From positions 37,868 through 101,867 of the forward strand of contig JAAYJE010000126.1 in NCBI GenBank assembly GCA_012523095.1: a DNA stretch of 64,000 nt, read 5' to 3'. Within the stretch, counting starts at the first letter, position 1; every line of letters begins with the position of its first letter. Positions 44,271 to 63,959 of the stretch are shown here, piece after piece. The notes under the pieces are model-generated. The model saw only the letters and a program-made list of their open reading frames with translations. It made no database searches and was not told where the DNA came from. The stretch is from Actinomycetota bacterium. GTDB lineage: Bacteria > Actinomycetota > Thermoleophilia > RBG-16-64-13. A program made the translations under genes and the position numbers.

Positions 44271-46973
44271 CTATTCAATGAGCCAACTCGACAGCGACAC
44301 GCCTGTCGCCGGATCGTAGCGCCTGTTGAACGCCTCAGGGCACTCCCTGCGCCAAGCCTCCATCTCCTTGTCGGCGACCTTCTCGACCTCGACCAAGAAG
44401 CCGCTCACCACCATGCCGGTGGCCTTCTTGGAGGTCGGCCTACGGGGTGTGATGGTGTTGATCGCCCCTCCTCTGTCGAGGACACCCGGGATAATCGGGT
44501 CCCATCTGGCTCCGTGGTCCATATAGGCGACCCGCGGCATGAGGCGCTCCGTGACGTAGGCCCCGCCCAGGACGACGCCGCGCTCGTTGTAGATCTTGAC
44601 GATGTCGCCATGTTCGATGCCACGGGCTGCGGCCTCCGCCGGGTTGAGCCAGACCGGTTCGTAGAGATACCCATCGGGGCCTCTCACCTTCATGGTGGGG
44701 ATCTCCCTCGTCCAGGTGATGTCGTCACCCTGAGCGTGCATGCGCCAGCGCGGGTGGTTGGACATGCAAAGGAGCGGATATTCCTCGGCCCGCTCGCCGC
44801 TCAGGCGCTCGTCGTGACTCTCGCTGCTCTCGATCCAGGCCGGTACGGGCGGCCGCTCGGGATCGTCGGAGAAATGCCTCTCGAGCGCCGACGACGAGTA
44901 CTCCAGGAGTCCGGTGGGAGTACTGAGGGGATTGCTCTCGGGATCGCGCCAGAACTCACTCAATCCCGGCGGCTGTTCCCTGACCCGTGGATCGCAGGGG
45001 ATCACGAAGTACTGCTTCGCCTGCAGCTCTTCCCAGGACACCATACCTTCGACACCCGAGACCTCGAAGGAGAGTCGCTGCCGCTCCTCCACCGTCCCCC
45101 CACGCGTGTACTCTTCGCGGAGCCCCAGTTTTTCGGCCACTTTCGCCACGACCTCGAAGTCGGAGAGCGAGTCACCTTCAGGCTCGATGCACTCCTCTTC
45201 CAAGAAGATCGACGTGAAGACACCGCTCCCCATGTCGCTTCCGATGTCGAGCATCTCGAATCTTGTACCGACCGGCAGGACGATGTCCGCCAGAAGGCAG
45301 TCGTTCTCCAGCCAGGGGTGTTGCGCCACGATACACTCCACGGAAGGCTGCTGCAGAGCCTGGATGTATCTATTGGAATCGTTCCAGCAGGTGATCCAGC
45401 AAGGGGAATCGGTCCAGATCATGTGGATGGTAGAGCGTCCCGGGGCAGGGAAGGTGTGCTCGGTGAACTGCTCCTCGGCGCTCTCCAGGAACTTGCGGAC
45501 ACCCCACCAGCTGACGGGCGGGTCGAGAAGCGCCTCGTGTACCAGGCACTTGGGAATCGCCTGAAGGGGAGGGTTCTCCTCGAGTCTGGTGAGTTCCTGC
45601 ATCCTTGGATGATCGCCGGAATATAGGGGTGGGGTCAATTCGCTCGGATCCATACCGCCGGCCGGACGGACCTGCTCCGAGAAGTTGGGGAGATCAGGTC
45701 TGACCACGCCTTGATAGGGGAGCGGCAGCCATCTTCGCCATATCCACCACTCAAGCATCTTCGCCTGGTGGCGGCCGGGTTTGCCCAAGCCCTGCATGCC
45801 CAGCAACATCGCTTCGAGACGAGCGGGCTCGCTCGAGTACGGGCCCCTGATGGCCGGGCCGGCGTTGCCGTGGATGAGGCTGGTGGCTTTGCGGGCCCAT
45901 TGTCGCGCGAGCGCCTTGATGGTCCACACGGGAACGGCGCACTTCTCCGCCGCCCATGCCGGGGTCTTGGGCACACCGTCGGTCGTGCCCAGCACGTACT
46001 CCTCGAACTTCTCGAATCCGTAGGAATGGCCGGCGATGTACTCCTTGTCATAGGCGCCCTCGGTCAGCCAGACGTAGGCGATGGCGAGCTGCAACGCCGC
46101 ATCGGTATTCGGCAGTACCGGTATCCACTTGTCGGCGTGCACTGCAGCGCCGTAGTTGAGGTCCGGAGAGATGTACACGGACTCGAGACCTATCTGCGTG
46201 AGCCAGTAGCATAGGTTACTGGCCATCATGCCCTGAATCGCGTGAGGAGTAGTCTCCGGGTCGCAACCCCAGAATAGAAGCAACTCGCCGTGCTCGGCGA
46301 TATCGGGGTAGAGGTTGGCGGCAGGCATCATCTCGCCGACCGGCTCGCAGCCCCACACATGCTTGGCCCCCCAGGTCTGTCCTTCCCAGCTGTCGAAATT
46401 GCGCATCTGGATCGTGTATCCACCAAGCAGGGAGAGGAGCCTGTTCGCGCAGCCGTGGCTCGGACTGAGGTGTTTCGTCTCGCCGTGCATGTCGGCCTGG
46501 GAGAGCACGGCTTCCGGCCCGTAGGCCGCCCCTACCCGCTTCAGCTCCGCGGCCACGAGCTCCGCGGCTTCATCCCAGGAGATGCGGACGTAACCGCTCC
46601 TACCCCGGTTCTGAGTGTTGCGGCCGCCGGAGCCGGTGGAGCCGGGAGCCCCGGTAGGATCCCAGTCTATGCGCTTAAGCGGATAACGGACCCGGTTCTC
46701 CGAGTAGACCCGCTTCTTGTAAGCCAGGCCGAGCGGGCCGACGGGAGCACGCATAGGAGGCTCCAATATCTTCCCCCCGACCTCCATCTTCCAGGCATTG
46801 AAGTCCTTGGGGTCGTAGCTCATGTCGTAGTGGAGAGGCCGGATCCTCATGATCCGGCCTCTCCGTACGTCCACAAGAGTCGGTGGGCCCGAATCCCCGT
46901 TGCCGATCAGACCCGACCCGCGGATGACCTGCTTATCCCCACTGCTATCCACGCCAGTCGCGTCCGGTGTCAA
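44271..46973 (-). CDS. Molybdopterin (bis-MGD) oxidoreductase, large subunit; pyrogallol-phloroglucinol transhydroxylase (AthL)-like
   Basis: 900 aa; no N-terminal FeS Cys motif; RPLHYDMSYDPKDFNAWKMEVGGKILEPPMRAPVGPLGLAYKKRVYSENRVRYPLKR, DSWEGQTWGAKHVWG, LLLFWGCDPETTPHAI resemble AthL as recalled. Confidence 0.8.
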   Translation of the reverse strand: MTPDATGVDSSGDKQVIRGSGLIGNGDSGPPTLVDVRRGRIMRIRPLHYDMSYDPKDFNAWKMEVGGKILEPPMRAPVGPLGLAYKKRVYSENRVRYPLKRIDWDPTGAPGSTGSGGRNTQNRGRSGYVRISWDEAAELVAAELKRVGAAYGPEAVLSQADMHGETKHLSPSHGCANRLLSLLGGYTIQMRNFDSWEGQTWGAKHVWGCEPVGEMMPAANLYPDIAEHGELLLFWGCDPETTPHAIQGMMASNLCYWLTQIGLESVYISPDLNYGAAVHADKWIPVLPNTDAALQLAIAYVWLTEGAYDKEYIAGHSYGFEKFEEYVLGTTDGVPKTPAWAAEKCAVPVWTIKALARQWARKATSLIHGNAGPAIRGPYSSEPARLEAMLLGMQGLGKPGRHQAKMLEWWIWRRWLPLPYQGVVRPDLPNFSEQVRPAGGMDPSELTPPLYSGDHPRMQELTRLEENPPLQAIPKCLVHEALLDPPVSWWGVRKFLESAEEQFTEHTFPAPGRSTIHMIWTDSPCWITCWNDSNRYIQALQQPSVECIVAQHPWLENDCLLADIVLPVGTRFEMLDIGSDMGSGVFTSIFLEEECIEPEGDSLSDFEVVAKVAEKLGLREEYTRGGTVEERQRLSFEVSGVEGMVSWEELQAKQYFVIPCDPRVREQPPGLSEFWRDPESNPLSTPTGLLEYSSSALERHFSDDPERPPVPAWIESSESHDERLSGERAEEYPLLCMSNHPRWRMHAQGDDITWTREIPTMKVRGPDGYLYEPVWLNPAEAAARGIEHGDIVKIYNERGVVLGGAYVTERLMPRVAYMDHGARWDPIIPGVLDRGGAINTITPRRPTSKKATGMVVSGFLVEVEKVADKEMEAWRRECPEAFNRRYDPATGVSLSSWLIE

Positions 46974-48300
46974 GCATGGCTTTCAGACACTCGGCCTTGG
47001 CTTCGTCCAACACGGCCCCGTTCTGAAGCATGAAGCCCCCGTCCTTCGCGCACGTCTCCAGGAGGTCGAGGGTGTACTTCTCCACCTCAGCGGGCGTACC
47101 CAGGGCCAGTAGAGCCGTTGGAACATTGCCCGCGATGGCGGAGTGGCCGCGCAAGGCCTGCTTTGCCGCCGCCATGTCGGTCTGGTCGAAGAGCCAGAAC
47201 ATGCTGCCGACGGGCAGATCGGGATCGGCGATCACGTCCAACCTCTTGTTGTAGCCTCCTTCGGCGAACATGGTCGGCACGATGCCCTCGTCGATCAGAC
47301 CCTTCAACACAGCCTTGAGCGTAGGCCAGTAGAACTGCCGGAAGTCGGCGTCGGACATGAAGCTGTCGGCACCCTTGTGAAGGACGAAGGTGACGAGCGG
47401 GGCGCCCGTCATCTCGGTCTGCCGCATGCCCCAGTCGATGATGATGGGGACGAACCGCTCACAGGCTTCCAGGATCTTCTCAGGTCGACGGAAGCGGTCG
47501 ATCATGATGCCCCGAGTGCCGCGCAGTGTGTCGGCCAATATGTCGTAGGGGGCCTTGGCGATGCCCCCGAACGACGAGGGGATACCCAGCCGGCCGGCGG
47601 CGTCCGCGCCGGCGGCCCCCAGAGCCATCAGGTACGCGAGACACTCACGGGCGGCTTCCGCCATCCTCTGCATCCCCTCCACCACCTTAGGATCGGCGAA
47701 GGCAGGCAGGCTGAAGAGCATCGTGGTCGCCTCCACCATGTCAGTAAGCGGCGGGAGGCTCGCCAGAGGAGCAAAAGCCGACCCGAAGCGCGGCAACAGA
47801 CGGCGGCGGAAGTAGACATCGGGGTCGGCTATGAGTGCGTCGTACTCGTCTTCCCTCATGTACTCGGCCTCGAGATACTGCCACGGGGTCTCGTCGGCCA
47901 GACCATTGCCGGGCCAATCCACCAGCCGTAGGCCCAGGAGCTCGAAGACCCTGGCCGGAGCGACGGAGGAGGTCTGAAAATCGGGACGGAAGTCCTCGTG
48001 GAACTTGATAACGGCAGCCGCGGCCTTCTCGTAGTCATGCATGGACTGCTTCTTGGTTAGACCGCTGTGCCTGCCCACATAAAAGCCGGCCGTGACGGTG
48101 ACCGGTACCCGGGCGGGCTTCTTCAGCTTGATCACATCTATGAGCAGCCGGACACGCTCTTGATATTCCACGCGCACCGAATCGCTCTTGAACTCCACAC
48201 CGGGCGCGCTCAGCCATCGCGCGAAACGACGCTCGCGACGCTCCTGCCAATCAAGCTCATCCCAACCTTCAAACGTCTCACCACGATCCTCGGTGCTCAT
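46945..48300 (-). CDS. Uroporphyrinogen decarboxylase (URO-D) superfamily protein, probably corrinoid-related methyltransferase
   Basis: 451 aa; KAPYDILADTLRGTRGIMIDRFRRPEKILEACE; DADFRQFYWPTLKAVLKGLIDEG. Confidence 0.82.
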   Translation of the reverse strand: MSTEDRGETFEGWDELDWQERRERRFARWLSAPGVEFKSDSVRVEYQERVRLLIDVIKLKKPARVPVTVTAGFYVGRHSGLTKKQSMHDYEKAAAAVIKFHEDFRPDFQTSSVAPARVFELLGLRLVDWPGNGLADETPWQYLEAEYMREDEYDALIADPDVYFRRRLLPRFGSAFAPLASLPPLTDMVEATTMLFSLPAFADPKVVEGMQRMAEAARECLAYLMALGAAGADAAGRLGIPSSFGGIAKAPYDILADTLRGTRGIMIDRFRRPEKILEACERFVPIIIDWGMRQTEMTGAPLVTFVLHKGADSFMSDADFRQFYWPTLKAVLKGLIDEGIVPTMFAEGGYNKRLDVIADPDLPVGSMFWLFDQTDMAAAKQALRGHSAIAGNVPTALLALGTPAEVEKYTLDLLETCAKDGGFMLQNGAVLDEAKAECLKAMLDTGRDWRG

Positions 48301-48788: not shown

Positions 48789-49640
48789 TCAACCGGCGCC
48801 TCCGGACAGGTTGATATCTTCCCCGGTTATGTACTTGGCTTTGTCGGAAACGAGGAACGACACCAGGTCGGCGATGTCTTGCGGCGTGCCCAGCCTGCCC
48901 AGAGGGATGGGCGGCGGTCCCGCCTGCCCGGTGGGACCGGTAGTGCCGGCCTTCAGCGAGTCAGACACGCTCATGCCCCGGTCGGCGGCCTGCTTCGCGA
49001 CGCTGTCGTCGCGGAAATTGGTGTCGAAGCCGCCGGGATTGATCGCATTGACGTTGATCTTATAGGGTGCCAGCTCGCGTGCCAGAGTCTTCATCAGGCC
49101 CAGGAGCCCGTGCTTAGAGGCCGCGTAACCGGCCCCTCCCGGGTAGGGCCCAATACCGGCCATGGACGAGATGAGAACGACCTTCTTACCTTCCGGATCC
49201 GGGATCATGACCTCGGCCACGGCTTTGCAGACCAGGAAGGCTCCGGTGAGGTTCACATCGATGAGCATCCGCCAGGTCTCTTCGTCCAGGTCCACCACCG
49301 GCACCGGCACCGGGCCACGCACACCCACACAGTGCACCAGGATGTCGATCTTCCCGCACTCCTCCAAGACCCAGGCCACCATCGCGTCCACTTCAGCACT
49401 CTTGCTGATATCATAGGCCAGAGGCACACCTTTCCTGCCCTGGGCCCGGATCTCGGCGACCACGTCGTCGAGGCCCTTCCAATCCTGGTCCTCAGGCCGG
49501 ATACTCTCCGGCACGGCATACTTGTCGACCACCACTACGTCGGCGCCGTCTTTGGCCAGTTGTACCGCGATACCGCGCCCCATGCTCCGTTTGGCCGCCG
49601 CCCCGGTGACCAGGGCGACTTTGCCGTCGAGAGAGCTCAT
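48789..49640 (-). CDS. SDR-family oxidoreductase
   Basis: MSSLDGKVALVTGAAAKRSMGRGIAVQLAKDGADVVVVD; YAASKHGLLGLMKTLARE. Confidence 0.9.
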   Translation of the reverse strand: MSSLDGKVALVTGAAAKRSMGRGIAVQLAKDGADVVVVDKYAVPESIRPEDQDWKGLDDVVAEIRAQGRKGVPLAYDISKSAEVDAMVAWVLEECGKIDILVHCVGVRGPVPVPVVDLDEETWRMLIDVNLTGAFLVCKAVAEVMIPDPEGKKVVLISSMAGIGPYPGGAGYAASKHGLLGLMKTLARELAPYKINVNAINPGGFDTNFRDDSVAKQAADRGMSVSDSLKAGTTGPTGQAGPPPIPLGRLGTPQDIADLVSFLVSDKAKYITGEDINLSGGAG

Positions 49641-50485
49641 AGTAGGCCCCTCTCTTTCAGATAGGCTTCGATGTTGAAGGTGGCCTCCTGAGCCAACAGC
49701 GGCTGACCTCCGGCCACGCATAAGGTCTGGCCGGTCACGTAGTCGGAGAGCTCAGAGGCGAAGAACAGGGCTGCGCCCGCGATGTCCTTCGGGCTCCCTA
49801 CTCTGCCGAGGGGCACCTCCCGCTTGGACACGGCCGCAAAGAAGGCATCCCGCTCGGGTCCCGGAGGCATGAGCGAATCCCAGAAGGTGGTTTCAATCGG
49901 GCCCGGGACGATGTTGTTGACGCAGATGTTGTATGGAGCCAGTTCGAAGGCGAGGTTGAGAGAGAGTCCGATGGCGCCTGCTTTGGCGGCGTGATAGTGG
50001 AGCACCGACACCACCGGCGATACGGCTCCCATCGAGGAGATGAAGACGATCCTCCCCCGCTTATTCTTCTTCATGGTAGGGATCACGGCCTCGCTCACGA
50101 GCCAAGGCCCCTTCATGTTGATGGCGACTATCCGATCCCACTCCTCTTCGGTGAAGGTACCCGTGGCTCCCGACCCATGGGTGCCCGGCACGCCTCCGGC
50201 GCAGTTGATGAGCACGTCCACAGTCCCCAAGTCGTCCAGCGTGCCCGCGACCATCTCGTCGACCTGAGCCTTGTTGGTGATGTCGGTTCTGAACGCAAGC
50301 GCCTTCCGCCCCAAGGCTTCGACCTCGCCCGCGACACTCAGGCAGCCGTCCAGGTCGATGTCGCACACCACCACGTCCGCCCCCTCTTCGGCGAATTTGA
50401 GGGCGATACCTCTACCCATACCCTTGGCTCCGCCGGTGACGATGGCCACCTTGTTCTCGAGTAGCATCTTTCGCTCCAAGCTCAT
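49637..50485 (-). CDS. SDR-family oxidoreductase
   Basis: LLENKVAIVTGGAKGMGRGIALKFAEEGADVVVCDID; YHAAKAGAIGLSLNLAFE. Confidence 0.9.
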   Translation of the reverse strand: MSLERKMLLENKVAIVTGGAKGMGRGIALKFAEEGADVVVCDIDLDGCLSVAGEVEALGRKALAFRTDITNKAQVDEMVAGTLDDLGTVDVLINCAGGVPGTHGSGATGTFTEEEWDRIVAINMKGPWLVSEAVIPTMKKNKRGRIVFISSMGAVSPVVSVLHYHAAKAGAIGLSLNLAFELAPYNICVNNIVPGPIETTFWDSLMPPGPERDAFFAAVSKREVPLGRVGSPKDIAGAALFFASELSDYVTGQTLCVAGGQPLLAQEATFNIEAYLKERGLL

Positions 50486-50513: not shown

Positions 50514-52400
50514 TCAGAGTATGTCGTCCAGCCCCAGAGAGATGACCCGCTCTCTGTCGATCGCCCCGGTCTCGGGATCGAAGCCCATGGCCTCGTAGAA
50601 CCCCCGCTTGAGCGCCTCCGAATCGACGGTCACACCCTTCAGCTCGCCCACCTGAAGAGGAGGGTTGCCTCTCGCCCGCTCGGGCAGCTTGAAGTCGTCG
50701 GGCTTGAACCCTTCGCGCAGGTTGAAGGCGTGTAGGAGGGTGGTGATCCGCCTGCCCGTCTCCACTATCTCTTCATAGTCGAGCCCCCAGCCGGTGATGG
50801 CGTTCATGCAGCCCAGGAAGTCCAGGGGCATGCTGTCGATCCCGAAAAGGCAGGCGCCCGAGGTGTTGACCCAATGCTGCCAACCGGCGAGGATGGCATG
50901 GTATACGCCCTTGTCGGTAGGATCATAACGCGGCATCGAGAAGGGAACGCCCATTCCCGCATAGGCCCTCTCGTTCACGCCGCCGTGCTCGGCGAAGGCG
51001 GTCCCGCCGCGAGTATGCCGGCCGGGTGTGGAGTCGGAGATGTAGGTGGCGCCCCAACCGGGAAAACAGCGCGGATCGTGCATGGCGAGGAGCTCGCCGC
51101 CCGCATGCATGGCGAACTGCTCCGCTCCTTCCCCGATCTTCTCAGCCGCCCATTTGGCACCGTCGGCCAGGATGTCGCCGAGGCCCTCACGCCGGCACAT
51201 CATCTCCAACACCGCCACCTGGGCGTCGCTGTTGCCCCAGGTGAGCTCATGACCGTTGGTGTCGCTCTTGGTGATCAGCCCATTCTCGTAGCACTCGACC
51301 GCGAAGGCCATGGTGGCTCCGGCCGAGATGGTGTCGAGCCCATACAAGTTGCAGAGTTCGTTGGCATAGATGAGCGACTCCATATTGTCGTTCAGGCACA
51401 TGGGCCCGAAGGCCGCCAAGGTCTCGTACTCCGGCTTGTGTGTGTCGCGAACCGGGTACTTGCCCTCCTCGACCGTGAGCACCGAGCCACACGCGACCGG
51501 GCAGCCTGCGCAGGCATACTTCTTGGTCACGTACTTGACCATCCCGTTCCAGGCCACCGAGTCCCACTTCCACTCGGGGAAGTCCTCCACATTATTGCCG
51601 GCCCAATTCTTGATGGGCACGTCGTGGTCGTGCATGTGCATGACCATCGCCCCTGGAGTGCCGCCGTGGGTCAGCCCGAAGAACATGCCCGAGGGGTTCT
51701 CCCTCGTCTCACGCATCATCTCCTTCATCATGGCCTGGATGGCCGGCCTGTCGACCACCTCCGGCTTCATGGATCCGGTGCAGGCCACGGCCTTGAGGTT
51801 CTTGGAACCCATGACCGCCCCCAACCCCGACCTCGCCGCGGCCCTCCCCCGGTCGTTGATGACCGCGGCTATCCTGGCGAGGCGCTCGCCGGCCGGTCCG
51901 ATGACCGCCACCTTCAAGTTCTTGTTGTCGTTCTCTTCACGGAGGAGTTCCTCGGCGACAGTGGTGTCCTTGCCCCACAGATGGCGGGCATCCCGGAGCT
52001 CCGGCCTGCCGTTGTCGATCAACAGGTAGACCGGGTGTTCCGCCTTCCCCTGGAAGAACACGATGTCATAGCCGGAGGCCTTGAAAGTGTTCGCGAAGTC
52101 GCCGCCGCTGTTGGCGTCGCCCCAGTATCCGGTGAGAGGCGACTTCCCCATGGTGGAGAAACGGCAGGTGGAGTACACGCCCGAGAGTGTGAGCGGCCCC
52201 GTGCCGATGCCGAATATATTGTCCGGGCCCAGCGGATCCACGCCCGGCTTCATACGCTCCAGGATGACCCGAGCCCCGATGCCGTAACCGCCCACGAAGC
52301 GGCGGGCGACTTCATCAGACAACTCCTCCTCGTGCATCGTGCCGTTCGCCAGGTCGACGAACAGCAACCTGCCCATGTAACCGTATCGCGCCCTAGCCAC
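50514..52400 (-). CDS. Aldehyde:ferredoxin oxidoreductase family (tungsten/molybdenum) protein
   Basis: 628 aa; YGYMGRLLFVDLANGTMHEEELSDEVARRFVGGYGIGARVILERM; GLGAVMGSKNLKAVA; CAGCPVACG. Confidence 0.92.
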   Translation of the reverse strand: MARARYGYMGRLLFVDLANGTMHEEELSDEVARRFVGGYGIGARVILERMKPGVDPLGPDNIFGIGTGPLTLSGVYSTCRFSTMGKSPLTGYWGDANSGGDFANTFKASGYDIVFFQGKAEHPVYLLIDNGRPELRDARHLWGKDTTVAEELLREENDNKNLKVAVIGPAGERLARIAAVINDRGRAAARSGLGAVMGSKNLKAVACTGSMKPEVVDRPAIQAMMKEMMRETRENPSGMFFGLTHGGTPGAMVMHMHDHDVPIKNWAGNNVEDFPEWKWDSVAWNGMVKYVTKKYACAGCPVACGSVLTVEEGKYPVRDTHKPEYETLAAFGPMCLNDNMESLIYANELCNLYGLDTISAGATMAFAVECYENGLITKSDTNGHELTWGNSDAQVAVLEMMCRREGLGDILADGAKWAAEKIGEGAEQFAMHAGGELLAMHDPRCFPGWGATYISDSTPGRHTRGGTAFAEHGGVNERAYAGMGVPFSMPRYDPTDKGVYHAILAGWQHWVNTSGACLFGIDSMPLDFLGCMNAITGWGLDYEEIVETGRRITTLLHAFNLREGFKPDDFKLPERARGNPPLQVGELKGVTVDSEALKRGFYEAMGFDPETGAIDRERVISLGLDDIL

Positions 52401-55553: not shown

Positions 55554-56048
55554 TTACTCGAGCACCCTCTTGTAGTTCGGATCCGCGGCCGCTTCGAACA
55601 TGACGATGGGGGTATCGATCCTCTTGAAAGTGACGGGGCAGTGCTCCACTCCTTTGGGCACGTGGATGAGGCAGGTCTTGGTGATGGTGTGTTTCTCTCC
55701 ACCGATCAGGAACTCGATCTCCCCTCCCAGCTCCCGCGGGTAGTTGCGGTTCGTGCCGACGAAGCCGACGACCTCGTCGAAATCATGGGTGTGGGGGATC
55801 TCGATGGCAACCGGCTTCCCGCCGGGCAGTCCCCACAGGATCTCGCAGCCCGCGAACAACGGACAACCTGGGACTATGGAATCCATGATCCCGAGCAGCA
55901 TCGTCCTATCGAGGATCCTGCCCTCCTTCTCCTGTTCTTCCATAGCCTCGAGCCAGCCGGGAGGCGGGGGCGGCATGAGATCCTCGGTCACGAAGTTCCT
56001 CCCGTACTTCGACTCCGTGGCGCCGTCGCTTCTACTCTCTTGGCTCAT
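55554..56048 (-). CDS. Cupin-fold protein, family member 3
   Basis: 164 aa; SKYGRNFVTEDLMPPPPPGW...IPHTHDFDEVVGFVGTNRNYPRELGGEIEFLIGGEKHTITKTCLIHVPKGVEHCPV. Confidence 0.72.
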   Translation of the reverse strand: MSQESRSDGATESKYGRNFVTEDLMPPPPPGWLEAMEEQEKEGRILDRTMLLGIMDSIVPGCPLFAGCEILWGLPGGKPVAIEIPHTHDFDEVVGFVGTNRNYPRELGGEIEFLIGGEKHTITKTCLIHVPKGVEHCPVTFKRIDTPIVMFEAAADPNYKRVLE

Positions 56049-56179
56049 CTGAGTACTCCTATGGTCTCGTGCTCACGCGCGCAGGGGCCACCATCTCAGT
56101 GAAGGTGCACCCGTGATAGAAATAGAGCCGGTTGGTTCCCACGTCGATCGTCCTGCATCACACGCCCTCTCGCCGGACT

Positions 56180-56614
56180 CTACCGGTGTCCGGCTCGTTT
56201 CCGACTTAGGTCTTCTTTGAGGTCCTCGATGGCCGCCCTGATGTCGGTCTCCGGTGGGTACACCCGGTCGAAACCCATACGTTTGAACTTAGCCTCGTCT
56301 TCGGCGAAATCATGCCGGGCGACTCCAAGGATGCCTCCCACATACAGAAGGATATCCTCCAGCCCGGCTTCGGTGCACTTCTCTCTGAAACCCTCCAGGT
56401 CCAACTCGGCCATGCCGTAGAGAGAACTGATCATCATGGCGTCGGCGGCGGTCTCCTGGGCGGCCCTGATGAACTCCTCCACAGGGGTCTGAGCGCCCAA
56501 CTCAATGACCATGAATCCGGCATCACGCAGAGCCCGGGATATCACCTTCGTCCCGATGACATGGGCATCCACACCGACCGTTCCCGTGATGACACAGCCC
56601 AGATGGTCCTCCAT
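56180..56614 (-). CDS. B12-binding protein, glutamate mutase sigma subunit (GlmS/MutS)-like
   Basis: 144 aa; VITGTVGVDAHVIGTKVISRALRDAGFMVIELGAQTPVEEFIRAA (DxHxxG), MISSLYGMAELDLEGFREKCTEAGLEDILLYVGG, FKRMGFDRVYPPET. Confidence 0.85.
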   Translation of the reverse strand: MEDHLGCVITGTVGVDAHVIGTKVISRALRDAGFMVIELGAQTPVEEFIRAAQETAADAMMISSLYGMAELDLEGFREKCTEAGLEDILLYVGGILGVARHDFAEDEAKFKRMGFDRVYPPETDIRAAIEDLKEDLSRKRAGHR

Positions 56615-56651: not shown

Positions 56652-57563
56652 CTACACAGTCACCTTGCAGGCGAGTTGCTTGGCTTTGACGATCTCACAC
56701 GCGGCCTTCATGAAGTCTTGCGAAGGGGCATCGGCGGTCGGCATCTCATAGTCCAATCCCAGCATCTCGTACTTCTGCTGACCGTAGCGATGATAGGGCA
56801 GCAGGTGCACGGTCGCCCCCGGCGACGTAGTGGCGACCAGGTCGGCGATGTCGGAGATGGCATCGCTCGAATCGTTGAACCCCGGCACCACCGGCACCCG
56901 CACTACGAAGGGTACACCGCTCGCCGCCACTTCCTTGAAGTTGCGCAGTATGGCCTCGTTGGTCCTACCGGCCTGGGCGCGGTGGATCTTGGGGTCGATG
57001 TGTTTGATGTCGAAATACACCAGGTCGACGTAGGGGAGCAGGCTCTTCAAGCCCTCGGTATTCCCCTGCCCCGCCGTGTCCAGGGTGGTGTGGAACCCCG
57101 CCTCCTTACAGCGCTTGAGCAGCGCTAGGGCGAATTCGGGTTGCAGCAGGACCTCACCGCCCGAGAGCGTGACGCCTCCGCCCGAATCGCGGTAGAAATC
57201 GACGTCGCGTTCGACCACCTTGAACACCTCGTCAACCGTCATCTCCTTGCCGGTGATCCGCATGGCATCGTGCGGGCATGCTTCGACACAGTCGCCGCAC
57301 ATTGTGCAAAGGTCGCGGTCGATCTCGATGCCGTCCGGTCCCACCGTGATCGCCCCTTCCGCGCAGGCTTCCACACACCGGTAGCACCTCTTGCAGATAG
57401 ACTGCCGATGCATGAGCTCCGGATCAAGGTTCTGAGATTCAGGGTTGGAGCACCACACGCAGCTCAACGGACAGCCCTTGAAAAAGACGGTAGTCCGGAT
57501 ACCCGGACCATCGTCGATACTGTACCGCTGTATGTTGAACACGGTCCCTTTGGCGCCTGCCAC
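56652..57563 (-). CDS. Glycyl radical enzyme activating enzyme (radical SAM, with 2x[4Fe-4S] insert)
   Basis: 303 aa; RYSIDDGPGIRTTVFFKGCPLSCVWCSNPESQ (CxxxCxxC), CKRCYRCVEACAEGAI, CTMCGDCVEACPHDAM, GGGVTLSGGEVLLQPEF. Confidence 0.95.
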   Translation of the reverse strand: MAGAKGTVFNIQRYSIDDGPGIRTTVFFKGCPLSCVWCSNPESQNLDPELMHRQSICKRCYRCVEACAEGAITVGPDGIEIDRDLCTMCGDCVEACPHDAMRITGKEMTVDEVFKVVERDVDFYRDSGGGVTLSGGEVLLQPEFALALLKRCKEAGFHTTLDTAGQGNTEGLKSLLPYVDLVYFDIKHIDPKIHRAQAGRTNEAILRNFKEVAASGVPFVVRVPVVPGFNDSSDAISDIADLVATTSPGATVHLLPYHRYGQQKYEMLGLDYEMPTADAPSQDFMKAACEIVKAKQLACKVTV

Positions 57564-57647: not shown

Positions 57648-60218
57648 CTAGCCTACCTCATGCATGGTCCGCTCGACGATCTCGTCCTGGAGTTCCGGCG
57701 GCAGGTCCACGAAGTAGGCGCTGTAGCCGCCCACCCGCACCAACAGATCCTTGTGAGCCGCCGGCTCCTTACGGGCCTTCATGAGCTCTTCAGCGCTGTG
57801 GATGTTGAACTGGATGTGCCAACCCTCGCGCTTCATGAACGTCTTGATGAGAGAGGCTACCTTGCTCAGCTTCTCAGGCGAATTGAGCACGGCCTTCGAG
57901 AACTTCATGTTGTGGGCGACGCCCGCACATTCGTACGGGGTCGGATACTTGGTGGCCGACAAGATGAGGGCCGTCGGGCCGTTGACATCGCCGCCGGCCA
58001 TGGCCGAAGTACCCCCGTCGTAGATGGGGGTGCCTGCGTAGCGTCCGTTGGGCATGGCGCCGACGGCCTTGCCCTGGGTCACGTGGCCGGCAGCCGCACC
58101 CTTGAACAGCATGGGTCTCTCGCCGGTGATGGGGTCAGGCCGGCTCTGCAGTATCCTCTGCGTGTCGCGCGACGCGCGGACGTACCACTCGTCCACATAG
58201 TCGTCGTCATTGCCGTACTTAGGGGCCTTCAGACACATCTGGCGGATGTCTTCATGACCCTCCCAGTTGGCGTCCATGGCCTCCAACAGCTGAGCCATGG
58301 TGACCTGCTTCTCATCGAACACCAGATACTTGACGGCGGCCAGGTAGTCGGCGCAGTCGCAGATGCCCTTGTCGCCCACCCACGACATCTTGCCGATGGG
58401 GTATCGACAACCGCCCTCCCGGGAAGCGAGCCCGGCGGGGATGCAGTCGCGGAAGAGCATGCCGGCGCGCAGCCCGCTCATGGGGCTGTTCGCGATCTCA
58501 GTGGTCCACCAGATGAAGTAATGGTCGCGCATCTTCTCCACGAAGTAGTCTTCCTGCTTCAGAAAAGCTTCATAGAGCTCATCGATCGACTTGAAGTCGC
58601 GGGGGTCGCCTGTGTGCAGGCCCACCTGTTTGCCGGTGCGTGGGTCGAAGCCGTCGTGCAGGGCCACCTCCATGACCTTGGCCTGCACCAAGTTGAAGGC
58701 GCCGGCCATGTGCTCCGCACACTCCAGGTGATAGCCCAGGCAGCCGCTCGCGCTCCAGTTGCAGGCATCCTCTATGGGTATGCCGCGATCCAGGTAGCGC
58801 CGCGTGCCCAACTCATCGTTCAGGAAGGCGGGATTGCCTCCCCCGAAGTCACGGTTGCGTTCCAGGGCATGGATCAGGAAAGCCTCGTCCTGATCTTCGT
58901 GATACCGAACGTATACGGCCGGTTCGGACAGGTGGACCTGTACCATGACTTCAAGGATCATCCAGGAGAGCTCGTTGGTGAGATCGTTGCCGTCCTTGTC
59001 CCGGCCGCACAGAGTCACGTTAGGCAGCTGGCTGCCCGGCGCTGCACGGTGTTCGCGCTTGATGGTGACCAGGTTCTCGACCTCGCGGATCTTCAACCAC
59101 ATGGCGCCGATCAGCTCGGCCGCCTGCCGGCGGGTGAGTCTACCGCTCTCGATATCCGCCTTGTAGTATGGATACCAGAACTGGTCGATCCTTCCTATCC
59201 CCACCTCAGCGCGTTCGGGGCTCTCTTTCCAGGCCGCCAGATGCATGAAGCGCACCGACTGGACGGCTTCCCAGAAGTCGCGCGGGGGCTCGGCCGGCAC
59301 GTGCTCGCACACGTCCGCGATCTTCTCAAGCTCGGCCTTGCGGACCGGGTCGGTCGTCTTGGCGGCCATCTCACGCGCGAGGTCGGCGTGCCGCTTAGCG
59401 AAGGCGACAACGGCCTCGAACATGATGACGATAGACTTGAGGAGGTACCACTTGCGGAGCGCGTTGGCGCTCGAACGGTCCTCTAGGGCCCCTTCCGCCT
59501 TCATCTTATCCATCTCGGCTTTGGCCAAGCCGATCACGTAGTTGAAGCCCTTGTGAAGCACTTCAGCGGTCAGCATGATCACTCCGCCGCCCATGGCGCC
59601 GTATCCCTGGAAGAGGCCGCGGTCGGGATTCTCGCGCACGCCCCTGCCTTCGAGGATCATGGCGTGGTCGAACAGCAGGTCGAAGTGCTCCTTGCCCAGC
59701 TCCTCCTCCAGCGCAACATTCACGTAGTTGACCGGGTTCATGTGCTCGACCCAGTACTCGGCGTCCGCCTTCAGCTTCTCCAGGTCTTCAGGGTCGATCA
59801 CAGTGGAGGAGATGTCGCTCAGCTTGCGGTCGAAACGGCCGCTCTCGCACATGGCGAGGATCTCGCGCGGCTTGACGGCGCAGAGCGTGTTGTTACCGCG
59901 GATGAACTTCGTGGACGAGCCGACGATGATCTCGTCGTCACGGATCAGGATGGGGCAGTTCTCCATCCTCTTCTGGAAGGCCTTGGCCCACCGGAAGTCG
60001 ACCGGCATCTGCTCGGTCTCCTTCCATGATTCGGTGAAGAGGAGCGTGTCGTCGACGTACACTTGAGGAGCCGCGTCTTCCCATTCCTTCTTGAGCTTTT
60101 TGAGGCGATCAGTCATAACGACCACGGATCGGATCTCCTCGGCGGCCCTGGGGTCGATCTTGCCTTGTACCACGGGGGTGATGTTCGAGGTCTCAGGCGC
60201 CATTTTGTCTCCCTTCAC
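57648..60218 (-). CDS. Glycyl radical enzyme (PFL-like superfamily), substrate unknown
   Basis: 856 aa; C-terminal LLVRVGGYSAYFVDLP glycyl radical motif; candidate active-site Cys in EDACNWSASGCLGYHLE. Confidence 0.93.
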   Translation of the reverse strand: MKGDKMAPETSNITPVVQGKIDPRAAEEIRSVVVMTDRLKKLKKEWEDAAPQVYVDDTLLFTESWKETEQMPVDFRWAKAFQKRMENCPILIRDDEIIVGSSTKFIRGNNTLCAVKPREILAMCESGRFDRKLSDISSTVIDPEDLEKLKADAEYWVEHMNPVNYVNVALEEELGKEHFDLLFDHAMILEGRGVRENPDRGLFQGYGAMGGGVIMLTAEVLHKGFNYVIGLAKAEMDKMKAEGALEDRSSANALRKWYLLKSIVIMFEAVVAFAKRHADLAREMAAKTTDPVRKAELEKIADVCEHVPAEPPRDFWEAVQSVRFMHLAAWKESPERAEVGIGRIDQFWYPYYKADIESGRLTRRQAAELIGAMWLKIREVENLVTIKREHRAAPGSQLPNVTLCGRDKDGNDLTNELSWMILEVMVQVHLSEPAVYVRYHEDQDEAFLIHALERNRDFGGGNPAFLNDELGTRRYLDRGIPIEDACNWSASGCLGYHLECAEHMAGAFNLVQAKVMEVALHDGFDPRTGKQVGLHTGDPRDFKSIDELYEAFLKQEDYFVEKMRDHYFIWWTTEIANSPMSGLRAGMLFRDCIPAGLASREGGCRYPIGKMSWVGDKGICDCADYLAAVKYLVFDEKQVTMAQLLEAMDANWEGHEDIRQMCLKAPKYGNDDDYVDEWYVRASRDTQRILQSRPDPITGERPMLFKGAAAGHVTQGKAVGAMPNGRYAGTPIYDGGTSAMAGGDVNGPTALILSATKYPTPYECAGVAHNMKFSKAVLNSPEKLSKVASLIKTFMKREGWHIQFNIHSAEELMKARKEPAAHKDLLVRVGGYSAYFVDLPPELQDEIVERTMHEVG

Positions 60219-60357: not shown

Positions 60358-61815
60358 TCACCTCTCCAGATACTCGAGCGCGCTTTTCCCGGCGATACGA
60401 CCCGAATTGAGGGCGAAGGCCGAAGCGAGCCCTGACGAGCCCTTGATGGGATAGCTGTCGCCGTACATGCCGCCGGCATCGAATCCACCCGCGTACAATC
60501 CCGGGATCACCGCGTCCTTCTTGTCCAGCACTTCGAGCCTCGCGTTGACCTTGACGCCACCCATGGTCCCCAAGAAGACGGTGCGCCCTCTCACGGCGTA
60601 GAACCTCGGGCCGACCACCGGATGCAGATAACGACGGTCCTTGACGAAGAGTTCGTCGTGACCCTTGGCGCAGTACCCGTTGTAATCCTCGATCGTAGCC
60701 CGGAGAACGGCCGGGTCCATCCCGGTCTGAAAGGCCAGGTCTTCTATCGACTCGGCCACGAAGACCTCCGTACTGCCGTTATCTACGGCCGCCTGTATCT
60801 CTTTTCGCAGGCTTGTCAACTTATAGCCGGGCGGGTAATCCATCCCCACTCCCCGTTCGAGACCCCGGTCCTGCAGCCGCTCGATGATGGAGTCGTCGAA
60901 CACGCTGAAGGTGTAGCCGTCGTGCTTGAGCCTTGCTTGGGCGTTGCCGACCGGGGTGTCCCAAAAACTGATGGTCTCGTCGCAGAATCTCTCGCCTCGG
61001 GCGGTGACCCAAAGGTCCGGCTGCGCACCGGCCTGCTCGAGTTCGCAGCCCATGGCGAACTCCGCCCCCAAGGGCGCCACCCGGAACAGCTCTATGGTCT
61101 CCACTCCCTCCTCAGCCGCTCCCACCTCCCAGGCCATCCTCAAGCCGTCTCCCGTCTTACCCGTGTTGCCGACCGGGAAGAGATTGGCCCCAAGATCGAA
61201 TCCCGTGTACTTCTTGATCCACTCTTTGTTGTTGGCGAAGCCACCGGTGGCCACCACGACCGCCTTGATCGCCACTTCCATCTCTTCGCCGTCGGCCTCG
61301 GCCACCACGCCGGAGATACGCCCGCCTTCCTTGAGAAGAGCCATCACAGGAATGCCGGGGAAGAACTCGACGCCTTTGCTCTTCGCCTGATCGACCAACG
61401 CCTTCACCATCGCTTCGCCCTTGCCCTTGATCACGTGATAGGTGAGAGGCGCATCGGGCATGTTGATGGTCACCTCGGTGAAGACCACTCCCCGACTCTG
61501 CAGCCAGCTGATGGTGGGTCCCGACTCATCGATGATGGCCCTTACCAAACGGGGGTTCGCGCGCCAGTGGCTGTAGTCCATGGTGCCCTTGAAGGCGGCA
61601 TCGCACGTGTAGTCCACATAGCGTTCGCGTTGCATGTCGCTCTCCGCGGCGAAGACGCCCTGAAGGAAGTTGGACGTGCCCCCCAAGGAGCGCTGTTTCT
61701 CGAAAACGACCACCTTGGCGCCGCCCTCGGCGAGCGTCACGGCGGCGGCCAGCCCCGTTGCGCCCGACCCGATCACAGCGACGTCGGCCTGCGTAGGTAT
61801 CGGACTCATACTCAT
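60358..61815 (-). CDS. FAD-dependent fumarate reductase/ketosteroid dehydrogenase-like flavoprotein
   Basis: 485 aa; VAVIGSGATGLAAAVTLAEGGAKVVVFEKQRSLGGTSNF; GGFDAGGMYGDSYPIKGSSGLASAFALNSGRIAG. Confidence 0.9.
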   Translation of the reverse strand: MSMSPIPTQADVAVIGSGATGLAAAVTLAEGGAKVVVFEKQRSLGGTSNFLQGVFAAESDMQRERYVDYTCDAAFKGTMDYSHWRANPRLVRAIIDESGPTISWLQSRGVVFTEVTINMPDAPLTYHVIKGKGEAMVKALVDQAKSKGVEFFPGIPVMALLKEGGRISGVVAEADGEEMEVAIKAVVVATGGFANNKEWIKKYTGFDLGANLFPVGNTGKTGDGLRMAWEVGAAEEGVETIELFRVAPLGAEFAMGCELEQAGAQPDLWVTARGERFCDETISFWDTPVGNAQARLKHDGYTFSVFDDSIIERLQDRGLERGVGMDYPPGYKLTSLRKEIQAAVDNGSTEVFVAESIEDLAFQTGMDPAVLRATIEDYNGYCAKGHDELFVKDRRYLHPVVGPRFYAVRGRTVFLGTMGGVKVNARLEVLDKKDAVIPGLYAGGFDAGGMYGDSYPIKGSSGLASAFALNSGRIAGKSALEYLER

Positions 61816-61844: not shown

Positions 61845-63959
61845 CTAATAGCTACCCCAGAATCTCACCGGCTTGATCTTCAGCCGGAGATCACACTGCA
61901 GGCACCTATACGCTTCACGGCCGGCCGCATCCTCACTCATGCCCAGGGCCATCTCGCAGAAGCCGGCCAGGCGCTCCGCCGGGGCCATGCAGACCTCAGC
62001 GACGCGGGTCAGCGCAGCGAAACCTTCGCCCGGCCCTAAGCAGCCGGCCGGCTCGGATTGCGGAGCCAGCTTCCTGTCGATCCTGCCGCTGCCCCCCAGA
62101 TACTTGTCCAGGGCCACGGCGGCTCTCCTGCCCGAGGCGACGGCCTTGATGACCGAGGCCGTGCCGGTGACCACGTCACCGGCGGCGAACACTCCTTCTC
62201 GACTGGTGCAGGAAGTGAACGGGTCCACCTCGATGAGACCGCGATCGGTCTTGTCTATGTCGAACCCTTCGGGTATCTCCGGACGCTGGCCCACGGCGAA
62301 GATCACGGTGTCGGCCTCGATGACATGCGTCGAACCGGCCACTGTCTCGATCTGCGGGATCCCTTCTTCGTCGAACAAGCACGACTCCACACCCAGAAAT
62401 TCCACCCCGGTCACCTTGCCGTCGTCGGCGAGGATGCGCGTGGGGGTGCGCGAGGGCTCGATGACGATGCCTTCCTCCTCACCCTGCTCGATCTCGTCGC
62501 CGGCGGCCGGCATCTCCTCCCTGCACTCCAGGCAGGCCACGCGCACCTGTTCGGCCCCCAGCCGCCGGGCGGCGCGGGCGCAGTCGAAAGCGACGTTCCC
62601 GCCGCCCAACACCACCACCCGCCTCCCTACGGCCGGAGCCTCTCCCATGTTCAGCGCCCGGAGGAAGTCCGTGCCGACCAGGACCCCCGCGCTGTTCGCC
62701 CCCGGGATACGGAGCTTCTGCCCCTTGTGAGCGCCGACGGCTACGATGACGCCGTCGTAGCCCTCCCGGAGCAATTCATCCAGGGACTCCACCCGGACGC
62801 CGGTCTCGATAGCCACGCCGGAATCCTCGATGGCACGGACCTCGCTTTCGAGTACGCGGCGGGGAAGCTGATACTCCGGGATGCCGTAGCCCAGCATGCC
62901 CCCCGCGGCGGGCAGCGCTTCGAAGACGGTCACCTCGTGGCCCTGCAACCGCAGAGCATAGGCCGCCGTCAGACCGGCCGGACCCGAGCCGATGACGGCG
63001 ACACGCTTCCCGGTGGAAGACTTCGGGGTGACGCCTTCCTTCCACACGCTGCCGTCGTCCTGTTCCGCCGCGTAGCGCTTGAGCTCCCTGATGGCTATGG
63101 GCTCGTTGACCTCTCCTCTCCGGCACCCCGTCTCACACGGATGATCGCAGACGTAGCCGAGGACCCAGGGGAAGGGTACCTTCTCCCTTATCACTGCGGC
63201 GGCACCCCGGTAGTCGCCGTCTTTGACCAGCCGCACGTACTTAGGAACGTCGATCTCGGCCGGACACGTGCTCCTGCAGGGCACCAACGCCGCCCTGCGG
63301 TTGTCGACTTGGACGAGGTCCTCCTTGTCCTGTATCGCGCCGGTCGGGCAGACCTCTGCGCAGGCTCCGCAGAAGCGGCAGCCCGACTCCGCCGGCGATG
63401 CGCCTTCGGAGGTGTATATGTGGAACTCTTCGCCCAGCCTCTTGTAATGAAGGACCCCAACGCCGCGCATATCCCAACAGGCCCGTACGCAGCGACCGCA
63501 GAGCACGCATTTGTTGGGGTCGTAGTCAAAGAGTGGATTGGCGCTGTTCACCGGGAGTAGCTTGGCGCGCCGCGTTATGCGGAGTTCCTCCACGCCCAGA
63601 TACTGTTTGAGCGACTGCAGCTCGCAGTTGAGGTACTTCCGGCACGTACCGCATTCCGGAGGGTGCCCGGCCAGCAGCAACTCCATGGCCATGCGCCGAG
63701 CCCCTGCGATCGGGTCGGACTGGGTGCGCACCACCATGCCTTCGGCGACGGGGGTCACACAGGAGGCGGCCAGACCTTCGACGCCCTCTATCTCGACCAC
63801 ACAGAGCCGGCACACCCCGTACGGCGGCAGGTCGGGGTGGTGGCAGAGATGGGGCACGTAGATACCCGCCTCCAGAGCGGCGTCAAGGACGCTGCCGCCC
63901 GCAGGCGCCTCCACGTCGCGGCCGTCTATGGTCAGCCTGATGGTCGCTTCGTCCTTCAT
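61845..63959 (-). CDS. NuoG-like ferredoxin domains fused to GltD-like NAD(P)-FAD oxidoreductase
   Basis: 704 aa; 2Fe-2S CHHPDLPPYGVCRLC, CVLCGRCVRAC, CRFCGACAEVCPTGAI, then GltD GSGPAGLTAAYALRLQGHEVTVFEALPAAGGMLGYGIPEYQLP. Confidence 0.92.
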   Translation of the reverse strand: MKDEATIRLTIDGRDVEAPAGGSVLDAALEAGIYVPHLCHHPDLPPYGVCRLCVVEIEGVEGLAASCVTPVAEGMVVRTQSDPIAGARRMAMELLLAGHPPECGTCRKYLNCELQSLKQYLGVEELRITRRAKLLPVNSANPLFDYDPNKCVLCGRCVRACWDMRGVGVLHYKRLGEEFHIYTSEGASPAESGCRFCGACAEVCPTGAIQDKEDLVQVDNRRAALVPCRSTCPAEIDVPKYVRLVKDGDYRGAAAVIREKVPFPWVLGYVCDHPCETGCRRGEVNEPIAIRELKRYAAEQDDGSVWKEGVTPKSSTGKRVAVIGSGPAGLTAAYALRLQGHEVTVFEALPAAGGMLGYGIPEYQLPRRVLESEVRAIEDSGVAIETGVRVESLDELLREGYDGVIVAVGAHKGQKLRIPGANSAGVLVGTDFLRALNMGEAPAVGRRVVVLGGGNVAFDCARAARRLGAEQVRVACLECREEMPAAGDEIEQGEEEGIVIEPSRTPTRILADDGKVTGVEFLGVESCLFDEEGIPQIETVAGSTHVIEADTVIFAVGQRPEIPEGFDIDKTDRGLIEVDPFTSCTSREGVFAAGDVVTGTASVIKAVASGRRAAVALDKYLGGSGRIDRKLAPQSEPAGCLGPGEGFAALTRVAEVCMAPAERLAGFCEMALGMSEDAAGREAYRCLQCDLRLKIKPVRFWGSY

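Follow-up and report, generated by a model that had tools for sequence, protein, structure and literature searches.

A glycyl radical enzyme clade without the cysteine-loop glutamate and its association with a glutamate-mutase-like B12 enzyme

The window, by which we mean the whole 64,000-nucleotide stretch of Actinomycetota DNA that was analysed, carries an intact open reading frame for a glycyl radical enzyme (GRE) at 57648-60218 on the minus strand, with PFL-like (E 4.9e-162) and Gly_radical (E 3.5e-26) Pfam domains. Residue numbers in this work are counted from the GTG; translation probably begins at the ATG in position 60203, because AAGGGAG stands just upstream of it. Orthologs at 51-92% identity align over the full length, and the gene is thus free of frameshifts. 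The GRE gene and the features around it are as follows.

61845-63959, minus strand: NuoG-like / glutamate-synthase-small-subunit-like electron transfer fusion
60358-61815, minus strand: FAD enzyme of the fumarate/urocanate/vinylphenol reductase type
57648-60218, minus strand: GRE belonging to the GCL(G/A) clade; 856 aa when started at GTG, or 851 aa with the likelier ATG at 60203
58740-58742, minus strand: codon of the thiyl Cys493, in SGCLGYH; Cys in 42/42 orthologs, with Gly495 instead of Glu at +2
57726-57728, minus strand: codon of the radical Gly831, in RVGGY; invariant in 42/42 orthologs
56652-57563, minus strand: radical SAM GRE activase; TIGR02494 362.7 bits (cut-off 174), CX3CX2C and two ferredoxin-type Cys motifs
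56180-56614, minus strand: GlmS-like B12-binding subunit; NF002612 190 bits (cut-off 110), TIGR01501 162 bits (cut-off 135.8), DxHxxG motif DAHVIG
55554-56048, minus strand: conserved small protein that looks cupin-like by eye but matches no Pfam or NCBIfam family; 73-79% identical in L028, L029, L062, L063 and L067
55060-55542, minus strand: conserved small protein that resembles SnoaL by eye but matches no family; 72-80% identical in L028, L029, L062 and L063
54544-55014, minus strand: another small protein that resembles SnoaL by eye but matches no family; 62-76% identical in L028, L029, L062 and L063
52410-54509, minus strand: flavoenzyme of the old-yellow-enzyme / 2,4-dienoyl-CoA-reductase type, with BaiCD-like architecture
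50514-52400, minus strand: aldehyde:ferredoxin oxidoreductase (AOR) family; 341 bits to 1aor versus 206 bits to BamB (4z3w)
49637-50485, minus strand: short-chain dehydrogenase (SDR), recurrent in GRE loci
48789-49721, minus strand: second short-chain dehydrogenase, 76% identical in L063

The activase adjoins the GRE gene, as the first-pass annotation of this DNA had stated, and is directly followed by the GlmS-type gene. In the corresponding locus of a sister species (L028), a GlmL gene and one small protein lie between GlmS and the cupin-like gene, and both are absent from window positions 56048-56180. A NuoF-like gene precedes the ortholog of the 61845-63959 fusion in L028, and a relative of the FAD enzyme at 60358-61815 adjoins the mutase-free GREs of Dehalococcoidales. 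We rejected the idea that the AOR gene has a role of the benzoyl-CoA-reductase type (BamB), its scores with true AORs being far better. Judging by the enoate reductase, AOR, SDR and FAD reductase genes nearby, unsaturated acids and aldehydes may be handled reductively. Next to the SDRs, a URO-D family protein (46945-48300, minus strand) is followed by a molybdopterin enzyme (44271-46973, minus strand) that is closest to the large subunit of pyrogallol hydroxytransferase (4v4c, E 6e-136) and has no adjoining small subunit; in Sporobacter termitidis, the 64% identical ortholog comes before a ferredoxin-like small subunit gene (L123, 12947-13759). These two transhydroxylase-like proteins made us consider a link to pyrogallol or phloroglucinol, a link that we keep as context only.

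The GRE barrel fold contains the two loops expected of the superfamily, the Cys loop and the C-terminal RVxGY glycyl loop. The glycyl motif RVGGYSAYF named by the first-pass annotation was confirmed, its radical residue being Gly831, and the context which that annotation quoted for the candidate thiyl Cys, NWSASGCLGYHLE, is exact and identifies the residue as Cys493. When aligned to PDB sequences, Cys493 pairs with Cys489 of CutC, Cys434 of HypD and Cys468 of IslA, while Gly495 falls opposite CutC Glu491, HypD Glu436 and IslA Glu470, so that Gly does stand in place of Glu two residues after the Cys as originally proposed. In an AlphaFold2 model made from the 42-ortholog alignment (mean pLDDT 85.9, pTM 0.89), residues 491-495 come after strand E488-490 as the Cys loop, and by both alignment and model it is unlikely that another residue is the active-site Cys. 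The loop at 384-399 is of low confidence, with pLDDT <50 at 393-396. The best 50 Foldseek matches listed for the model are all GREs. Glycyl radical eliminases match with TM 0.82-0.85 by query length at about 30% identity, BSS and MASS alpha rank with the more remote GREs (E 1e-43 vs 1e-53), and HPAD is the last GRE among the fold matches listed.

Cys493 and Leu494 are invariant in all 42 full-length orthologs, which span seven phyla; at position 495, 39 of them have Gly, three have Ala and none has Glu. Because these two residues never vary and the third is always Gly or Ala, the GCL(G/A) context without Glu is, on the sequences compared, a character of the clade and not a product of chance. 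Tyr496 is found in 41/42 orthologs and His497 in 39/42, with Arg replacing the latter in both Dehalococcoidales orthologs; E502 and H503 are each kept in 40/42. The residues that deal with substrate in CutC are replaced in the window GRE (Y208 by R192, D216 by L202, E491 by G495, T502 by A505 and Y506 by N509). The basic residues R192, R195, R378, R391 and K514 are invariant or nearly so in the clade (R378, R391 and K514 invariant), and these conserved Arg and Lys suggest that an anionic carboxylate is a plausible substrate. This case for a cationic pocket is drawn from the sequence alignment.

Glu occupies the Cys+2 position in glycerol dehydratase, CutC, HypD, IslA and HpsG, and in every characterised eliminase aligned, as well as in seven other S. 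termitidis GREs examined and in a further two from the window genome. The position matters, because changing this Glu to Gln in IAD abolishes activity; HPAD and IAD both need the Glu, yet PAD works with Gln there (PMC9248008). Outside the clade, Thr is found at this position in L022 and Val in L070 of Sedimentibacter hydroxybenzoicus. The missing Glu is therefore real and conserved, but it is not unique to the clade. The L070 gene (10001-12376) reads GCVV, and GCVT is seen in two relatives of the window genome (L022 and L017).

No NCBIfam GRE model reaches its cut-off with the window GRE, the best being HpsG (490 bits, cut-off 1000), followed by HypD (464/1100), IAD (404/1100), CutC (396/1050) and HPAD (300/1150). 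Pyruvate formate-lyase does not fit, as there is a single Cys in GCL, no Cys-Cys pair, and 81 of the 994 bits for TIGR01255. HPAD and IAD differ in the Glu next to the Cys as well as in the model scores, and PAD (PhdB) has Gln where the clade has Gly or Ala. The Arg of the fumarate site in X-succinate synthases is Arg508 in BSS and Arg492 in MASS (PMC12358834); by an offset judged from Cys493 and Gly829/831, no Arg is found near window position 508, which is Phe and mostly His in the clade. No ORF of at least 90 aa for small FeS subunits (beta/gamma) flanks the GRE in the window. Membership of BSS, prompted by the chain name of the top phmmer match (8iof), was rejected, as 8iof is an N-methyl-cis-4-hydroxy-D-proline dehydratase and has GCVE. 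Chain A of this PDB entry is named "Benzylsuccinate synthase alpha subunit" against the entry's own title, an automatic-annotation trap. In a maximum-likelihood tree built without BSS, PAD, IAD and HPAD, the clade stands apart from CutC, HypD, IslA, HpsG and the N-methyl-hydroxyproline dehydratases with 100/100 support, and the nearest row outside it is L022, on a long branch. The missing Glu had been taken to argue against diol, choline, isethionate and HPA activities and for a distinct class, and the NCBIfam scores, the tree and the replaced CutC substrate residues support that view; a characterised GRE family with the same GCLG context was looked for and not found. Nevertheless, the Glu argument by itself does not fix the identity of the substrate, and the linked B12 mutase, which the first-pass annotation overlooked, is a stronger clue to the role of the GRE.

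The GlmE partner of the window's GlmS is encoded on another contig of the same genome (C66, 487 aa), beside PrpD-, HyuA- and HyuB-like genes, SDRs and an FAD reductase, so the idea of a GlmS working alone was rejected. In the sister species (G002), a single contig of 44,637 b holds both a PrpD-HyuA-HyuB-SDR-AOR-GlmE set (L131) and the GRE-activase-GlmS-GlmL set (L028), and in L031 and L066 the genes for GRE, activase, GlmE, GlmS, PrpD, HyuA, HyuB and SDR form a single locus. GlmE and GlmS are fused in S. termitidis, where GlmL comes next, and in several other Bacillota, and PrpD-type genes lie beside GlmE in Actinomycetota and Bacillota. Loci with the GRE and mutase genes adjacent or interleaved come from Actinomycetota, Bacillota, Acidobacteriota, Bacteroidota and Deltaproteobacteria, and the pair is present in at least five bacterial phyla. 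GlmE, GlmS or GlmL genes are on 22 of the 45 GRE contigs, and on 17 of the 27 with at least 5.5 kb downstream. Of 16 genomes with an unlinked GRE that were searched whole, 14 carry the same GlmE elsewhere at 53-68% identity, and for these the notion that the mutase is truly missing where unlinked was rejected. The two in which GlmE was not found hold the deepest-branching GREs (Dehalococcoidales L058 and Bathyarchaeota L060), which means that the tie between the GRE reaction and the mutase is not a strict one.

Many of the genomes compared are incomplete MAGs. The 61 relatives of the window genome that were compared include eight with the GRE (at least 70% identity) and seven with GlmE (at least 72% identity), the seven all being among the eight (hypergeometric about 2e-8, uncorrected for ancestry and inflated by kinship); in the eighth, G010, the GRE is on a 3.5 kb contig. 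An independent draw from another phylum, 297 genomes of the order Oscillospirales, to which S. termitidis belongs, yielded the GRE in two and GlmE in the same two, on separate contigs in one (G301). Cultured S. termitidis (type strain DSM 10068) has both genes. This species is an aromatic-compound fermenter, and 13 GRE matches were counted in one 4.2 Mb genome (G061).

A second GRE-mutase set lies at 684-8703 of L081, on contig C10 of the window genome, and comprises large and small transhydroxylase-like subunits, an MFS gene, GlmE2-GlmS2-GlmL2, another MFS gene and a GRE fragment at the contig end. The remainder of a GCVEP-type GRE is on C87 (L003), and its join to the C10 fragment is assumed. 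The one MutL-family gene found in this genome lies on C10. GlmE2 has R66Q and R149N, which therefore point to a different substrate. Three relatives (L128, L129 and L130) have GlmE2-GlmL2 with a PrpD-like gene; other oxidoreductase genes are nearby in L128 and L129, and a gene that is enolase-superfamily-like by eye precedes the set in L130.

When aligned to glutamate mutase (1cb7), the GlmE proteins of the clade keep the arginine claw R66, R100 and R149 along with E330 in 14/14, and Y181 and K326 in 13/14. In all 14, E171 is replaced by P and Y177 by W, and H291Q and a change of H150 to S, C or T are also seen. In glutamate mutase itself, the claw holds both carboxylates and E171 contacts the glycyl amine (PMC9545868). 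As the claw is kept and the amine contact is lost, the mutase substrate is, judging from these residues, probably a dicarboxylate without an amino group. Against TIGR01503 (cut-off 390.1), the GlmE of the window genome scores just below at 387.4 and that of S. termitidis scores 358.9.

In the accepted GRE cycle, a Gly radical gives rise to a Cys thiyl radical and this to a substrate radical (PMC9248008). Here, the activase would put the radical on Gly831, from which a thiyl radical would form on Cys493 and take an H atom from the substrate. A Cys loop without Glu would have nothing at that place to deprotonate an adjacent OH. Because of the missing base at Cys+2 and the conserved Arg and Lys, elimination seems less likely, and our leading idea is non-eliminative chemistry in which a C-C bond is made, broken or shifted on a carboxylate. 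The GRE would act in the same pathway as an AdoCbl-dependent mutase of glutamate mutase architecture, with its GlmS in the window and its GlmE on the other contig. This mutase would interconvert a linear and a branched amino-free dicarboxylate, and a PrpD-type enzyme would hydrate or dehydrate its product, in parallel to glutamate mutase and ammonia lyase in glutamate fermentation. The type of substrate, the order of the steps, the C-C chemistry and the role of PrpD are what we infer; the intact motifs, the clade, the linkage and co-occurrence and the mutase residues are observed. As a whole, it seems to us reasonably probable that the gene product is a functional, oxygen-sensitive enzyme of an uncharacterised clade which acts non-eliminatively on a carboxylate and shares a pathway with a glutamate-mutase-like rearrangement of a non-amino dicarboxylate. 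Whether the two radical enzymes handle nitrogen-free carboxylates in an undescribed catabolic route, with the PrpD-type enzyme in the place of ammonia lyase, we regard as evenly balanced.

The main rival is an eliminase, a dehydratase or other lyase, with a relocated base. The missing Glu is no proof against elimination, as H497, E502 or H503, all highly conserved in the Cys loop region, could act as base, and the nearest folds and sequences are those of diol/glycerol dehydratase and other eliminases. However, the substrate-contact residues of CutC and HypD are changed, two Dehalococcoidales orthologs have R in place of H497, and the consistent Glu of the characterised eliminases speaks against it; we consider this rival unlikely, though a serious one. 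If the enzyme were a decarboxylase, its substrate being arylacetate-like or polycarboxylic, the invariant R378, R391 and K514 could hold the carboxylate, and PAD shows that Gln can serve at +2. Against this stand the need of HPAD and IAD for the Glu (PMC9248008), their low model scores, the last place of HPAD among the GRE folds listed and the lack of an HPAD-type small subunit nearby, which leave the decarboxylase improbable.

In the alkane pathway, a mutase follows X-succinate synthase, and that mutase is of the methylmalonyl-CoA type. If the GRE likewise added its substrate to fumarate and the mutase rearranged the adduct, the B12 enzyme would follow known alkane-degradation logic, and the mutase does keep dicarboxylate binding. 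This is slightly less probable still, given the distant folds of BSS and MASS alpha, the apparent lack, by offset, of an Arg equivalent to BSS Arg508 / MASS Arg492 (PMC12358834; window 508 is Phe), and the small FeS subunits not encoded near the GRE in the window. Finally, the GRE and the mutase may work in different pathways and be found together simply because both are needed by the same anaerobes, as the unlinked genes of several genomes and the deepest clade members without a mutase would allow. The adjacent or interleaved gene order in five groups and the exact two-way match among the 297 genomes argue against this, and we hold it to be the least probable of the four.

Discussions usually treat GREs and B12 radical enzymes as two ways of doing one job, the former oxygen-intolerant and the latter oxygen-tolerant (PMC8473912). 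Here they appear as partners, the one having a Cys loop without the standard base and the other a pocket without amine recognition, and the near-constant company of the mutase points to an undescribed anaerobic route for organic acid breakdown with two radical steps. If our reading is true, GREs would gain a new reaction class and carbon-skeleton mutases a new substrate. Since S. termitidis DSM 10068 carries both genes, both are directly testable. GRE and GlmES are already known kinds of enzyme; what seems new is the variant, in the shape of this clade, the setting of its active site and the pairing. The literature searched, with most subscription papers outside its scope, yielded no description of a GRE paired with a glutamate-mutase-type enzyme, nor of trihydroxybenzene pathways with a GRE.

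The window GRE resembles the glycyl radical eliminases (glycerol/diol dehydratase, CutC, HypD, IslA, HpsG and the N-methyl-hydroxyproline dehydratases) in fold, Cys and Gly loops and activase type, and differs in the absent Glu at Cys+2, the replaced substrate residues, its separate clade and the linked B12 mutase. PAD (PhdB) is similar in that it also lacks this Glu, having Gln instead (PMC9248008), whereas the window clade has Gly or Ala and falls far under the cut-offs of the IAD and HPAD models for other arylacetate decarboxylases. With the X-succinate synthases BSS and MASS it shares the GRE fold, without their small FeS subunits and apparently, by offset, without the fumarate Arg; the mutase of the alkane pathway is of the methylmalonyl-CoA type, in contrast to the glutamate mutase type linked to the window GRE. 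That linked mutase matches glutamate (methylaspartate) mutase GlmES with GlmL in its epsilon/sigma/chaperone set and arginine claw, and departs from it at E171P, Y177W, H291Q and H150 to S/C/T. As in glutamate fermentation by the methylaspartate pathway, the mutase stands next to an enzyme able to make an unsaturated diacid; unlike that pathway, amine recognition is lost, GRE, AOR, OYE and HyuAB genes are added, and a PrpD-type enzyme would, by analogy with the glutamate fermenters, take the place of methylaspartate ammonia lyase.
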